Counted from the stretch's first letter, positions 32,107 to 37,815 are shown. The stretch is 64,000 nucleotides of DNA from Spirochaetaceae bacterium (GCA_031278215.1 JAITKV010000060.1:1-64000); one strand, 5' to 3'. Notes: generated by a model from the sequence alone, not told the origin. Program-made: numbers and translations.

Positions 32107-32135
32107 TTGACAGGACGGGGGGAGGGGTTTAGTAT
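32107..32135 (+). promoter_or_regulatory. Promoter of the binding protein/transporter cassette
   Basis: TTGACA (32107-32112), a 17-nt spacer and TAGTAT (32130-32135). The -35 box begins 8 nt after the PEGA stop. The predicted start near 32142 leaves about 13 nt before ATG 32155. Confidence 0.7.
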
Positions 32136-32154: not shown

Positions 32155-33096
32155 ATGAAACGAAGTGTTTGGCGCCTTGTTTTTATCGCCCTTGCCTTTG
32201 TATCCTGCGGCAAGGGGGCCGAAATAGAACCCTGGGCGGAAACGGGGGTCCCTACTCCCCTGGAAACGGTGGAACGCCTGGGGACCCTGAATAAAGAGGC
32301 CGCGGCGGTTCCCCTGACAGATTTTGCCGACTACCCGGCAGAAATACAGAAGATCCTCCGGCGGGGCAGCATTATTTTTGGCATGACCGCGGCGGACCAA
32401 AAGCCGTTTTTTTACACCGATGAAAAAACGGGGACGCTTATCGGCCTTGATGTGGAGATAGGCTGCGAAATCGCCAACCAGCTGGGGGTACAGGCGGTTT
32501 TTAACCGCGACGCGGCCAGCTTTGACGGCGTTGTGTTGAACGTGGTAAATAAGAATGTCGATGTGGCCCTGAGCAAATTAAGCCGCACGCCGCGGCGCGG
32601 CGCGCTGGTGCGGTTTACCGCGCCCTACATCACTTTTCGCCAGGCTCTTTTAATAAACCGGCTGGAACTGGCCAAGGTTAGTTCCGAAGAAAACCTGCCC
32701 CTCTACATGAAGCAGTTTCGGGGCGGTCTGGCTATTATCAAAAATTCCTCCTATGTGGGCTACGCGGAAAGCAATTTTCCCCTGGCCCTTAAAAAGACCT
32801 ACGACACATGGCCGGAATGCATCGACGCGCTTTTTGCGGGGGAAGTGCTTGCCGCATACCGGGACGAAGGGGAAATCCTTATCATTAACGAAACCCGCAA
32901 GGATTCAGGCATCATGATGAAGCCGGTCTTTATTAACGACAAGCAGGATCCCATAGCCATGGCGGTGTCCCACGACGCCCCCCATTTGCAGGAATGGCTT
33001 AACACCTTTCTGGAAGATTATATTCTGCAGCACGGCAGCGAGCTTACGCCGGCCCGGCTGATAAAACGGCATTATGCTCCGGACGGCGCCAAATGA
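32155..33096 (+). CDS. Solute-binding lipoprotein, SBP_bac_3 type
   Basis: 313 residues. ATG 32155 begins a lipoprotein signal with lipobox FVSC, so the mature protein is lipid-anchored in the periplasm. The fold is that of amino-acid-binding proteins: IIFGMTAADQKPFFYTDEKT, LIGLDVEIGCEIANQLGV, then VDVALSKLSRTPRRGALV and FTAPYITFRQALLINR. Asp and Arg in these motifs normally grip the alpha-amino and carboxyl groups of an amino acid. There is no ABC permease or ATPase beside it. The next gene, overlapping by ATGA, encodes an SDF carrier. The longer frame from 32107 starts inside the -35 box and is rejected. Confidence 0.9.
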   Translation: MKRSVWRLVFIALAFVSCGKGAEIEPWAETGVPTPLETVERLGTLNKEAAAVPLTDFADYPAEIQKILRRGSIIFGMTAADQKPFFYTDEKTGTLIGLDVEIGCEIANQLGVQAVFNRDAASFDGVVLNVVNKNVDVALSKLSRTPRRGALVRFTAPYITFRQALLINRLELAKVSSEENLPLYMKQFRGGLAIIKNSSYVGYAESNFPLALKKTYDTWPECIDALFAGEVLAAYRDEGEILIINETRKDSGIMMKPVFINDKQDPIAMAVSHDAPHLQEWLNTFLEDYILQHGSELTPARLIKRHYAPDGAK

Positions 33097-34784
33097 CGGT
33101 GGGGGTATTAAAACATCCGCTGGTAATTTTAGCTTCCGTCTTTATCGGCATTGTAATAGGATTATGCAATGGGCCCATTTCGGCCTTTTTCGGAGTCCGG
33201 AGTTTTGCGCAGATTATTTCCATGCCCGGACAGGTATATCTTTTTTACCTGCAAATGACCGTGATCCCAATCATTGTTACCGCCATCTCCTCGAGCATCG
33301 GCAGGCTCATGCGGAACAGAAGCAGCCATGGGCTTATAAGAAAAATGTGCTTTGTGTTTTTGGCGGGCCTTGCCGTAACCGCGCTGATCGGCATGGCGGT
33401 GGGGATCCTGGGCCGGCCCGGCGCCGGTCTGGACGAGGATACCCGCTCCCTTTTAACCCGCCTTATATCCTCCCAGACCGCCGGCGAAGAACCGGAAATC
33501 CTGGAAGTTACTCTTTTGAACACCCAGAGTACGGAACCGGAGCTTAGATCGGGGCTTGCGGTTTTTCTTACGAGTCTTATTCCTTCCAACATATTCTCTG
33601 CCCTGGCCTTTGGAAGCACCATGGCGATAGTGTTTTTTTCCATCGTTTTTGGAATTGCCATAGGTTTTGTCAATGATCAGCCGGCGGATATGCTGATAAA
33701 ATTTTTAAGCGCGGTTTTTGAAGCCTTTCAAAAACTCGTCAGCGCGTCCTTGTACCTGCTGCCCTTTGGACTTATCTGTCTTATGGCCGGGCAGATAGCC
33801 CAGGTGGGCATCCTTGTTTTTATGGCCATGTCAAAGTTTATAATCCTTTATTGTGCGGGAACGGCGCTGTTATTTATCGTAACGACGGCGGTGATCTGGA
33901 CGCGCTCGGGAATCGCCAACCCCTTCAAGGTGCTTTCGCTTTTGTTTGAACCTATCATGCTGGCCTTTGCCACACGAAACTCCATGGCGACATTGCCCAG
34001 CGCCATTTCCTGCCTGGATGACAAAATGAGCTTCGACAGAACCACGGTCAACCTTACCCTGCCGCTGGGAATGACCCTGGGGCGCTTTGGCAATGTCTTT
34101 TATTTTGCCGTGGCGGTATTCTTTGTGGTGCAAATCTACGGCATGGATCTGGCCGCGGCCCAGTACGCCGCGGTTTTTCTCGGCGTTATTTTTGCCGGCG
34201 CCGCCACGGCGGGGGCTTCCGGCATTGTAACGCTGTCGGTGATCGGCATGGTCCTTTCTCCCCTTAATCTGCCCGTGGAGGCGGTGTTGATTATCTTTAT
34301 GGCCATCGACCCCATCATCGATCCCTTTAGGACCTTTTTGCTGGTTTACGGAAACATCGGCGCCACAACCCTGATTGCGGGAAAACAAAAAATCTACGGC
34401 GCCGACTTCCTTTCCGTGAGCATGCGGAAAAACTCAGGCCGGCGCCCGGTTCTTTACCGCGGCCCCGACGGCGGCCTGGAAGGAATTGAAATTGACCTGC
34501 TGCGGGAAATAGCCCGGCGGCTGGATAAAAAACTTGTGATCCATGAAGGAAGCCCCCCGGAAGGGCTTAGGACGGATATTATCGGCGGCAGCGTCATAAA
34601 AACCGAGGCCCCGCCGCCGGGTTTAATCTTCTCGCAAAGTTACGGCGCCATAACGGAACGGGATGTCCGAATGGAACTATGCCTGCTGCTTTCTCCTTTC
34701 AGCGTCGACTCGGTGGCGATCAACGGAATTATAAAAAAAATCACCGCCGAAAATTTTTTAAAAACCAAGGGCGGAGAGAATTAG
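33093..34784 (+). CDS. SDF (dicarboxylate/amino-acid:cation symporter)-type transporter with SBP-like C-terminal tail
   Basis: 563 residues. Residues 1-445 have the glutamate-transporter fold: hydrophobic helices, HP1 region ATRNSMATLPS and HP2 region AGASGIVTLSVIGM. The TM7 motif, normally NMDGT, reads GRFGN (PLGMTLGRFGNVFYF). In TM8 the substrate Arg and the first Asp are kept (DPIIDPFRTFLLVYGN), but the residues at the Asn and last Asp positions are Leu and Asn. After residue 450 the chain resembles a shortened SBP_bac_3 domain (LEGIEIDLLREIARRLDKK then FSQSYGAITE). The carrier is probably for an acidic amino acid, perhaps without Na+ coupling, or it may act as a sensor. Confidence 0.85.
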   Translation: MTVGVLKHPLVILASVFIGIVIGLCNGPISAFFGVRSFAQIISMPGQVYLFYLQMTVIPIIVTAISSSIGRLMRNRSSHGLIRKMCFVFLAGLAVTALIGMAVGILGRPGAGLDEDTRSLLTRLISSQTAGEEPEILEVTLLNTQSTEPELRSGLAVFLTSLIPSNIFSALAFGSTMAIVFFSIVFGIAIGFVNDQPADMLIKFLSAVFEAFQKLVSASLYLLPFGLICLMAGQIAQVGILVFMAMSKFIILYCAGTALLFIVTTAVIWTRSGIANPFKVLSLLFEPIMLAFATRNSMATLPSAISCLDDKMSFDRTTVNLTLPLGMTLGRFGNVFYFAVAVFFVVQIYGMDLAAAQYAAVFLGVIFAGAATAGASGIVTLSVIGMVLSPLNLPVEAVLIIFMAIDPIIDPFRTFLLVYGNIGATTLIAGKQKIYGADFLSVSMRKNSGRRPVLYRGPDGGLEGIEIDLLREIARRLDKKLVIHEGSPPEGLRTDIIGGSVIKTEAPPPGLIFSQSYGAITERDVRMELCLLLSPFSVDSVAINGIIKKITAENFLKTKGGEN

Positions 34785-34884
34785 AATCCGGCGGTTCCCA
34801 ATCACGGATAGAGCGAAGGCCCATGGAAACGCTAAAACGGGCCGGCGGTTTTTTATCCGATCCCTATAAGGGGCAGGAGTTTTT

Positions 34885-37029
34885 ATGGTAAAGAACTGGC
34901 TTCAACGCATACGAATTTTTAAGGTTAAACAGGTTATTATTTCCATTAACGTGATTTCCCTGGTTTTTTCCACCGCCATTATTTTGATTTCCCTCTGGGT
35001 AAGCTCGTCAAAAAACGCGCAGGAATTATCGGGCGCCCTGATCAGCGAAATACAGGAATCCATTACCAACAGGCTTATAAATTATTTCGAGCCCGTCGCG
35101 GAGATAAACAACAGAACAAGTTATTTAATCAACACGGTTTTTACGGATCCCCTGGAACGCAGGGAAGGCGAAGATGGTCTTTTTGCCTATTACGGCGAGC
35201 TTTTGCGGACCAACTCCATGGTAAAACTGGCCTATTTTTCGGATATCCACGGCAATTTAATGATGCTGAACAGGATGGACGACGGCTCTTTTTCAAAACG
35301 GATGGTCCACAATGACGGGGAAACCATTACCACCACCTGGGACCACGCCAATGTCGTGTACTTCGGAAATTACAGCAATTCCGTATTAGACGCCGCGGAC
35401 GGGTATGACCCCAGAAAGCGGGGCTGGTATGTGATTGCCCAGGAGCAGCGCAGGCCCTCCTGGACGCCGGTGTATCTTTTTGCCACCGATCATCTGCCGG
35501 GTTTTACCAGTGTGGTCCCCCTGTACGACAACAACGGCGTTCTTTCCGGCATCAGCGCCCTGGATATAACCGTGGACGAGCTTTCCCGCTTTCTGGCGAC
35601 CATACGGCCCACGCCGGGGACAAAAATCGCCCTGGTGGACGGCGCGTATAACCTGGTAGCTTTTCAGGCGGCCGGCAGCGAGGATTTGAAGAAGCTCTTT
35701 ACCGAAACCGTGGACGCAAACGGGGTTACCGTCTTTGACATACGAAAATTTGACATGTTCCCCGAAGAAGACATGCGCTACATATTGGGCGAAACGGTCC
35801 GGCAGGGCGGCGGATCCAGGACCGTCAAATACAGGGGCGGGTCGTACCGTTCCGTGCTGGCCCCCGCCACCATCGGAAGCGGCCTGGACCTTTTTATTGC
35901 CATCATCATACCCGAAGACGATATTATCGGGAACGTAAAACGGAACCTTATTTACGTTACCTGTTTCTCGGTTATTGTTCTGGTGATCATCATTATTATC
36001 AGTTCCCTGTTTTCCAATTCCATCGCAAAGCCCATGCAAAAGCTTTCTGAGGAAATGGCCAAGGTGCGGGACTTTCAACTGGACTCCCATGTGGTTATCC
36101 CCAGCACCCTTATCGAAATTGTCCGGATCCATGAAGCCTTTGAAGGGATGCGGACGGGCTTACGGAATTTTAAGCGCTATGTTCCCTCGGATTTGGTGGC
36201 CCAGTTAATCAACCAGGACATTGAGGCCAAAATCGGGGGAGAAAGACGGGAGCTTTCCATATTTTTCAGCGATATTGCCAATTTTACGTCCATCTCCGAA
36301 AAGATCAGCCCCGAAGAACTGGTGCAGCAGCTTGGCATCTATTTTAAAAATGTTTCCAAGACAATCCTCGATTACAAGGGGACCATTGACAAGTATATAG
36401 GCGATTCGGTAATGGCCTTTTGGGGGGCCCCCGTTCAAAGCAAGAACCACGCGGAAATGGCCTGCCGAAGCGCCGTGAATATTCAAGTGGTCCTCCACTC
36501 GATTTTTCGTAAATGGAGCAATACGGGAAAAGAACCCTTTTATACCCGCGTCGGCATCCATACCGGAGAGGTCATTGTGGGGAACATGGGTTATGAAGAA
36601 CGGCTGAATTATACGGTGCTGGGAGATTCGGTCAATCTGGCCAGCCGGCTTGAAGGGGTCAATAAGGTATACGGTACCAGAATACTGGTTAGTCAAAACA
36701 CCTGGGAACAATGCCGCGATTTATTTGAATTCCGCAAGGTGGACAAGATCACCGTAAAGGGCCGCCACGAAGGCGTCATGATATACGAACTTTACTCCGA
36801 GAAGGACGAAATAGAAAAACCCCTGCGGAAATTTTTTCTCTATTATGAAAGGGGCCTGGAATATTACTTTAACCGTAATTTCGAAGAAGCTCTTAAGTAT
36901 TTTAACACGGTGCTCAAGTACCGCCATTCTGACGGGCCCAGCAAAGTAATGCGGGAACGTTGTTTGTATTACATAAACAAGCCCCCTTCGGAGGATTGGG
37001 ACGGCGCTTTCGCCTTAACGGCTAAATAG
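34885..37029 (+). CDS. Membrane adenylate/guanylate cyclase, class III, with extracellular Cache domain
   Basis: 714 residues with CAGGAG before ATG 34885. TM1 (about 18-38) and TM2 (about 355-377) bracket a periplasmic dCache-like sensor (KRGWYVIAQEQRRPSWTPVY). A HAMP-type segment precedes the cyclase domain. Catalytic residues look complete: metal Asp in FFSDIANFTS and YIGDSVMAFW, adenine-selecting Lys in GTIDKYIGD, and Asp, Asn and Arg in TVLGDSVNLASRLEG. It should therefore make cAMP. A TPR-like tail follows (YYERGLEYYFNRNFEEALKY). Its place between the transporter and racemase genes suggests it senses the same amino acid; this is inference. Confidence 0.92.
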   Translation: MVKNWLQRIRIFKVKQVIISINVISLVFSTAIILISLWVSSSKNAQELSGALISEIQESITNRLINYFEPVAEINNRTSYLINTVFTDPLERREGEDGLFAYYGELLRTNSMVKLAYFSDIHGNLMMLNRMDDGSFSKRMVHNDGETITTTWDHANVVYFGNYSNSVLDAADGYDPRKRGWYVIAQEQRRPSWTPVYLFATDHLPGFTSVVPLYDNNGVLSGISALDITVDELSRFLATIRPTPGTKIALVDGAYNLVAFQAAGSEDLKKLFTETVDANGVTVFDIRKFDMFPEEDMRYILGETVRQGGGSRTVKYRGGSYRSVLAPATIGSGLDLFIAIIIPEDDIIGNVKRNLIYVTCFSVIVLVIIIIISSLFSNSIAKPMQKLSEEMAKVRDFQLDSHVVIPSTLIEIVRIHEAFEGMRTGLRNFKRYVPSDLVAQLINQDIEAKIGGERRELSIFFSDIANFTSISEKISPEELVQQLGIYFKNVSKTILDYKGTIDKYIGDSVMAFWGAPVQSKNHAEMACRSAVNIQVVLHSIFRKWSNTGKEPFYTRVGIHTGEVIVGNMGYEERLNYTVLGDSVNLASRLEGVNKVYGTRILVSQNTWEQCRDLFEFRKVDKITVKGRHEGVMIYELYSEKDEIEKPLRKFFLYYERGLEYYFNRNFEEALKYFNTVLKYRHSDGPSKVMRERCLYYINKPPSEDWDGAFALTAK

Positions 37030-37044
37030 CAAAGGAGTCCTGTT

Positions 37045-37815
37045 TTGGAAGAACGGTACAAACCCTTAATCGGCGTCATAGGCGGCGTGGGGCCCTACGC
37101 GGGCCTTGATTTTGTCCGTAATATTTTTAGCAACACCCGGGCCTTGAAAGACCAGGAACATCTTAATACGCTTCTGGTCTCCTGCCCCAGTATTATCCCC
37201 GACAGGACAAAATACCTGCTTGATGAAGAGCCGGTGAATCCTTCCGGCGGTTTGTTTGAATCTGCGAAAATTCTTTACGCCGCCGGAGCGCGCCACGCGG
37301 TGGTGGCCTGCAACACCGCCCATTCGGACCGGATCTTTGCGCCCTTTTGCGGCATGGTAAAAGAAGCTATGCCGGATATGGTTATTGTCAATATGCTCCG
37401 CGCCTGCGTGGATTTTATAAAAAAGAAACACCCCGAGATTAAGACCCTGGGACTTTTGGCCACCCGGGGAACCTACAAAAGCCGGGTTTACGGCGACTAT
37501 TTTAAGGCCGCCGAAGGCTTTTCGATTATCGAACCGGAGCCGCCCGGACAAGACCGGATTGGCCAGGCCATTTATTCGCTTGATTTCGGCATCAAGGCCC
37601 ATTCCAATCCGGTAAAGGCCAAGGCCTGCAATATTTTGCTCTACGAAGGCTTTCGCCTGCTTGACCGGGGCGCCCGGGGCTTGATCCTGGGCTGTACCGA
37701 ACTGCCCCTGGCAATGGACCAGGAGGATTTTTCCGCCCCGGTATTCAACCCCGGCTTCCTCGCCGCCCGGGAGCTTATCCGATTAACGGCCCCTTCCTCC
37801 CTGACCGAAGTATAG
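37045..37815 (+). CDS. Aspartate/glutamate racemase family protein
   Basis: 256 residues. A TTG start is chosen because AAAGGAG lies 7 nt upstream and no ATG fits. The N-terminus GVIGGVGPYAGLDFV and both catalytic cysteines, in VVACNTAHS and LILGCTELPLA, match the PLP-independent Asp/Glu racemase family, where one Cys removes and the other adds the alpha proton. The exact substrate (Asp, Glu or a hydantoin) is not determined. The gene closes the cassette of binding protein, carrier and cyclase, which points to D- or L-acidic amino acids. Confidence 0.9.
   Translation: MEERYKPLIGVIGGVGPYAGLDFVRNIFSNTRALKDQEHLNTLLVSCPSIIPDRTKYLLDEEPVNPSGGLFESAKILYAAGARHAVVACNTAHSDRIFAPFCGMVKEAMPDMVIVNMLRACVDFIKKKHPEIKTLGLLATRGTYKSRVYGDYFKAAEGFSIIEPEPPGQDRIGQAIYSLDFGIKAHSNPVKAKACNILLYEGFRLLDRGARGLILGCTELPLAMDQEDFSAPVFNPGFLAARELIRLTAPSSLTEV

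Follow-up and report, generated by a model that had tools for sequence, protein, structure and literature searches.

A binding protein-linked SDF carrier with a Cache adenylate cyclase and an amino-acid racemase: a candidate sensory transporter of spirochaetes

Binding proteins of the SBP_bac_3 family normally serve ABC importers. In the DNA analysed here (the window, 64 kb within one contig of a Spirochaetaceae genome of 2.1 Mb, 62 contigs and 80% completeness), the gene for such a protein adjoins that of an SDF (glutamate-type) carrier, followed by an adenylate cyclase and a racemase. What does this combination of genes do? A preliminary description, made from the sequence alone, had taken the four genes as one cassette that senses, imports and converts acidic amino acids (Asp/Glu, possibly D-forms from peptidoglycan) with cAMP as output.

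Gene order and conservation of the set

All four ORFs were recovered on the plus strand where the preliminary description had placed them, each with a Pfam match: an amino-acid-binding lipoprotein (SBP; 32155–33096, E=1e-17, with a lipobox-like AFVSC), the SDF carrier (33093–34784, E=4e-68), an adenylate cyclase with an extracellular Cache sensor, HAMP and TPR (34885–37029), and an Asp/Glu-type amino-acid racemase (37045–37815, E=7e-27). The ATGA coupling of SBP and carrier was likewise found, the SBP stop overlapping the carrier start (33096/33093). Directly 5' of the cassette lies a weak promoter-like site, TTGACA-17-TAGTAT (32107–32135, plus strand), with 10 of 12 consensus matches; six such sites were found, as against 5.1 expected in shuffles. 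The flanking genes (MutS2, MATE, PEGA, D,D-carboxypeptidase, AsnS and FlgF/G) were considered as further members and rejected; they are not conserved near relatives, and thus only the four genes travel together.

A carrier search of 393 genomes of the phylum returned eight close relatives (39–45% identity), followed by a sharp fall to about 25%. The SBP gene directly adjoined the carrier in all eight, a cyclase was fused or nearby in seven (one locus is cut by a contig end), and a racemase was present in six. A scan of one genome per species gave 80 additional carrier loci, including termite-gut and rumen Treponema, Desulfobacterales, Cyanobacteria, Omnitrophota, Chloroflexota and Lachnospiraceae. 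Removal of duplicate records left 73 loci of the SBP-linked SDF carrier clade, 71 of them with sequence allowing the SBP to be judged. An SBP gene was located directly upstream on the same strand in 70 of these 71 loci, across several phyla (the exception is L107), and none was found beside other SDF carriers at the 28 loci checked. Among spirochaetes, a Cache adenylate cyclase was fused or near in 47 of 51 loci, with a Cache chemoreceptor adjoining the set in three of the four that lack it, and the racemase was present in 40 of about 43 loci not interrupted by a contig end. The cassette of the preliminary description is therefore strongly upheld by co-occurrence in other genomes, to which the fusions described below are added.

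In the tree, a fully supported branch separates the SBP-linked carriers from the other SDF carriers, while long branches leave the inner order unsure; the nearest relatives of the window are Treponema/Spirochaetaceae MAGs. Of 200 genomes in the family of the window, 22 had the carrier, most of these MAGs being incomplete. Gene order varies, the cyclase gene of some relatives (L050, L060) lying 5' of that of the SBP. In members from Cyanobacteria, Omnitrophota and Proteobacteria, SBP and SDF are a pair in whose neighbourhood no sensor was found; a sensor is therefore not required for the pair to work. Three plasmid loci (L155, L156 and L157), from cultivated hosts in Paraburkholderia (P. phymatum), Cupriavidus and Gemmobacter (G. 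aquarius), carry SBP, SDF, racemase and a second SDF in a row, with no cyclase. In Omnitrophota, several SDF carriers of the same clade stand in tandem beside one SBP (L104:531–10224 and L103:6390–8910). Near relatives of the termite Treponema carrier were also found in MAGs labelled Chitinispirillales and Candidatus Adiutrix (L061, L063), possibly by transfer or mis-binning. A search of phages gave weak SDF homologues only (25–28% identity).

The carrier: ion sites, tail and fusion to signalling enzymes

What goes beyond the preliminary description is an SBP-lobe tail on the carrier, the replacement of its Na+-site residues, and its fusion to the cyclase in relatives. The carrier scored 230.7 bits against SDF/DAACS (PF00375; cut-off 27.9), and its core (residues 1–433; 33093–34391) is defined by Pfam, alignments and a predicted model that matched GltPh and ASCT2 in Foldseek. 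In GltPh, Na+ is coordinated by residues 92/93, N310, D312 and D405, and the Na+-coupling side chains of SDF carriers are S/T at 92–93, N310, M/S at 311, D/E at 312 and D/E at 405 (PMC12668577). The window carrier has G, L, G, R, F and N at these positions and thus lacks the Na+-coupled signature: GRFGN takes the place of NMDGT (R331, codon 34083–34085) and N421 that of D405, with D410 and R413 kept. Both D312 and D405 are replaced in 75 of 75 clade sequences (by Asn at 405 in 73), position 311, Met in the NMDGT motif, is Arg in 63 of the 75, spirochaetes included, and positions 92/93 and 310 are also largely replaced across the clade. The 17 NMDGT-type SDF proteins aligned with them retain that motif, apart from an Asn at 312 in one. 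Another group of SDF proteins, without an SBP and with a GQNGC motif, is also devoid of NMDGT, so this loss does not by itself set the SBP-linked clade apart.

The H+-coupling signature of SDF carriers consists of a hydrophobic residue at 92, L311 and N405 (PMC12668577), and it is present only in part: beside the prevalent N405, a hydrophobic residue at 92 occurs in some members, but position 311 is occupied by Arg, Pro, Ala or Gln and in no member by Leu. By analogy with Lys/Arg in some other Na+-independent carriers, Arg at 311 may act as a cation stand-in. Import is one possibility only: with its Na+ side chains lost, the carrier might run on protons, lack coupling altogether or act purely as a receptor. 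The substrate residues D394 and R397 and the hairpin 1 Arg are invariant or nearly so in Spirochaetota.

The C-terminal part of the window carrier (about residues 434–563; 34392–34784) is a tail of about 130 extra residues, common to 16 termite-gut relatives, which profiles and the predicted model identify as a single-lobe SBP domain. SBP_bac_3 was matched by all 17 tails, profile-profile comparison of the tail with SBP lobe 1 gave 96%, and the best PDB matches were domain-1-only TmArgBP constructs; a chance match, as might be suspected from E=0.003 in one protein, is ruled out by the 17 tails and the profile comparison. In the predicted model the tail forms one beta-alpha-beta lobe (pLDDT mostly 73–88). 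Given that lobe 2 and the carboxylate Arg are missing, the tail probably does not bind an amino acid, and by the topology of the SDF family it is presumed to be cytoplasmic. It occupies the place of the cyclase in other clade members.

In 25 loci, carrier and Cache cyclase form a single open frame, of about 1,190–1,250 aa where complete (some frames are incomplete at contig ends). Of these, 23 fall in a rumen-dominated group and two (L047, L058) within the termite-gut group, in most members of which the two genes are unfused. Two Lachnospiraceae loci (L111:7871–11293 and L112:8845–12339) encode a carrier-Cache-HAMP-SpoIIE phosphatase chain with an SBP gene upstream, and the fused state needs at least three changes on the tree. 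Assembly artefact is ruled out as a source of the fusions, which many independent assemblies contain; a search of 250 genomes from the L112 family gave no further SDF-SpoIIE fusion at E≤1e-40. The neighbour of an unfused SBP-SDF pair can be a Cache-SpoIIE gene (L093, L094; in L095 a HAMP-SpoIIE with its start cut off), a Cache-cyclase gene (L092, L102) or a Cache-MCP gene (L052, L055, L059). The output thus varies between SpoIIE, cyclase and MCP, while SBP, carrier and Cache stay together. No other observation speaks as strongly for the carrier being part of the sensor.

Two single loci are worth recording. At L040:2775–6479 (minus strand), an intact SDF and an SBP are accompanied by a Cache cyclase that carries a second, degenerate SDF-like domain in fusion, apparently a carrier domain turned pure sensor part. 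At L053:8452–10191, the carrier ends in part of a cyclase catalytic domain (91 bits to a profile built for this analysis, none in Pfam), a possible remnant of a lost fusion.

Sensor, binding protein and racemase

The cyclase catalytic domain (36250–36774; Guanylate_cyc E=4e-27) aligns with a complete catalytic set: two metal Asp, the Lys of DKYIGD and the Thr of LNYT (class IIIb-type), and the Asn and Arg of VNLASR. We take the Asp pair to bind metal, the Lys/Thr pair to set specificity, and the Asn and Arg to have their customary roles. An extracellular Cache sensor and a full set of catalytic residues, as well as cAMP as the output, had been proposed for this protein; alignment and a dCache_1 match (35344–35676; E=1e-11) agree with the former, and the class IIIb residues support the latter. 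A HAMP-like linker at 36007–36165 is weak (E=0.05). The amino-acid motif of dCache_1AA domains was defined in PctA as Y121, R126, W128, Y129, Y144 and D173 (PMC10104139). The window Cache contains it complete as Y-R-W-Y-Y-D (GYDPRKRGWY...WTPVY...ALD, from the Tyr codon at 35404), as do all cyclase members with a readable Cache. The genome has cAMP effectors, with six cNMP-binding domains; it also encodes 10 cyclase domains, so cAMP is not specific to input from the cassette. The only other SDF-like carrier of the genome (L041, G000:C7:6104–11798) shares its contig with two cNMP-binding proteins, encoded about 3–5 kb away.

The SBP (SBP_bac_3, 64.6 bits) has invariant R148 and D237, which by analogy with LAOBP are the carboxylate-binding Arg and the amine-binding Asp; K141 (codon 32575–32577, plus strand) is presumably in the binding pocket, by the same analogy. 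This Lys was present in 49 of 49 loci whose carrier has R413, the Arg for acidic side chains, and in 0 of 17 without it (one has Arg), and the racemase was found at 41 R413 loci as against 0 of 18 loci lacking R413, with the limit that the R413/K141 covariation comprises only two independent changes on the tree. The plasmid SBP-SDF-racemase sets keep both R413 and the Lys in the SBP. The association of R413, K141 and racemase is suggestive of an acidic ligand. The racemase scored 123.6 bits against TIGR00035 (cut-off 93.1) and has both catalytic Cys (C89 and C217, invariant), and its invariant R54 and K184 align with residues of PhAspR that we take to contact substrate. Linkage, the Cache amino-acid motif and R413/K141 all favour the acidic amino acid named in the preliminary description as the likely ligand.

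A proposed sensory transporter and its rivals

We consider it fairly probable that the cassette encodes a sensory transporter ('transceptor') complex for acidic amino acids, with cAMP output and a binding protein of its own. The lipid-anchored SBP would catch the ligand in the periplasm and either hand it to the SDF carrier or dock it there; this elevator protein, which has lost the usual Na+ side chains, would change shape with the ligand and probably move it. Carrier and Cache cyclase would be physically joined, as one polypeptide in relatives and as a complex in the window, such that the state of the carrier and the occupancy of the Cache jointly set whether cAMP synthesis switches on. The racemase would convert the amino acid, once imported, between its D and L forms. 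A broader proposal is more tentative, and we give it somewhat less than even credence: the clade may be a fourth class of SBP-dependent transporter, of the SDF (EAAT/GltPh) fold and Na+-independent, in which the carrier itself is permanently wired as a receptor to signalling outputs that can be swapped (adenylate cyclase, SpoIIE phosphatase, chemoreceptor).

Several known systems resemble parts of this arrangement. In E. coli C4-dicarboxylate sensing, it is the SDF carrier DctA that puts the sensor kinase DcuS into its responsive state (PMC5703999). As proposed for the cassette, a carrier of the SDF family governs a membrane sensor whose sensing domain is extracellular, but the two are separate proteins with a histidine-kinase output and neither SBP nor racemase, whereas the present carrier is without the Na+ motif and is paired with a cyclase, fused to it in some relatives. 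CbrA (SLC5-STAC-histidine kinase) and Ks-Amt5 (Amt-histidine kinase) combine transporter and signalling enzyme in one polypeptide (PMC13022988, PMC5764959), as do 25 relatives of the window, in which the two are neighbouring genes; their transporter folds differ, their output is a kinase, and they have no Cache between and no binding protein. Transporter-sensor fusions as such are thus already known, while SBP-dependent SDF flux, if shown, would be new in kind. The families of SBP-dependent transporters named in 2018 were only ABC, TRAP and TTT (PMC5812351). Like TRAP and TTT, the cassette pairs a binding protein with a secondary carrier, but the SDF is its only membrane carrier, its binding protein is of SBP_bac_3 type, and there are no Q/M (DctQM) or TctA/B subunits. 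GltPh, GltTk, EAAT and a reconstructed uncoupled aspartate transporter (9bgy, 9bh0) share the fold, D394 and R397 with the window carrier, which differs in its identity of about 25%, replaced Na+ side chains, SBP partner, and SBP-lobe tail or sensor fusion. PctA-type dCache_1AA receptors have the same complete motif, yet in the present set signalling runs through a cyclase, and the receptor is linked to a carrier. No description of an SDF carrier with an SBP, or of an SDF-cyclase or SDF-SpoIIE fusion, was found in the open-access literature searched. EAAT/GltPh-fold proteins are the model elevator carriers, and a receptor role has so far been argued mostly from DctA/DcuS; the carrier-enzyme fusions are single chains in which carrier state and second-messenger output could be read together. 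If the proposal is true, an SBP-dependent secondary carrier is added beyond TRAP and TTT, and a natural SDF clade without the Na+ site becomes material for studying the loss of ion coupling.

The SDF part might instead be a ligand-gated receptor and no transporter, with SBP and SDF as a sensing head and the racemase substrates entering otherwise. Such a reading is rather unlikely: it fits the replacement of Na+ ligands, at 312 and 405 in every clade member, and the degenerate SDF-like domain fused to a cyclase in L040, but the substrate-site residues are preserved in Spirochaetota, L040 retains a second, intact SDF, and SDF carriers that need no Na+, being uncoupled or proton-coupled, are known (PMC12668577). 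At the other extreme, the genes could be a plain uptake-and-racemisation operon, the cyclase being an independent, co-transcribed sensor and the fusions merely fixing expression. The cyclase-free plasmid sets and the unfused genes of most termite-gut members are in keeping with this; we nevertheless think it unlikely, as fusion to one or the other of two output enzymes is seen on three or more separate branches, and outputs were swapped while SBP, SDF and Cache were retained.

The sensory transporter reading also has to be set against the idea that the SBP serves an ABC importer encoded elsewhere and was placed here by chance. Its closest solved relatives are indeed ABC SBPs, but the near-constant same-strand adjacency to this SDF clade in several phyla, and its absence at other SDF loci, make such a coincidence highly improbable. 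Compatible with the sensory transporter, finally, is the somewhat unlikely case that the ligand is another acidic amino acid, e.g. cysteate, rather than Asp/Glu. The best NCBIfam match of the racemase is the cysteate racemase CuyB (NF052483, 140.2 bits), although this score is below the equivalog cut-off of 190, that for TIGR00035 is above its own, and the nearest solved relative is the aspartate racemase 1jfl.
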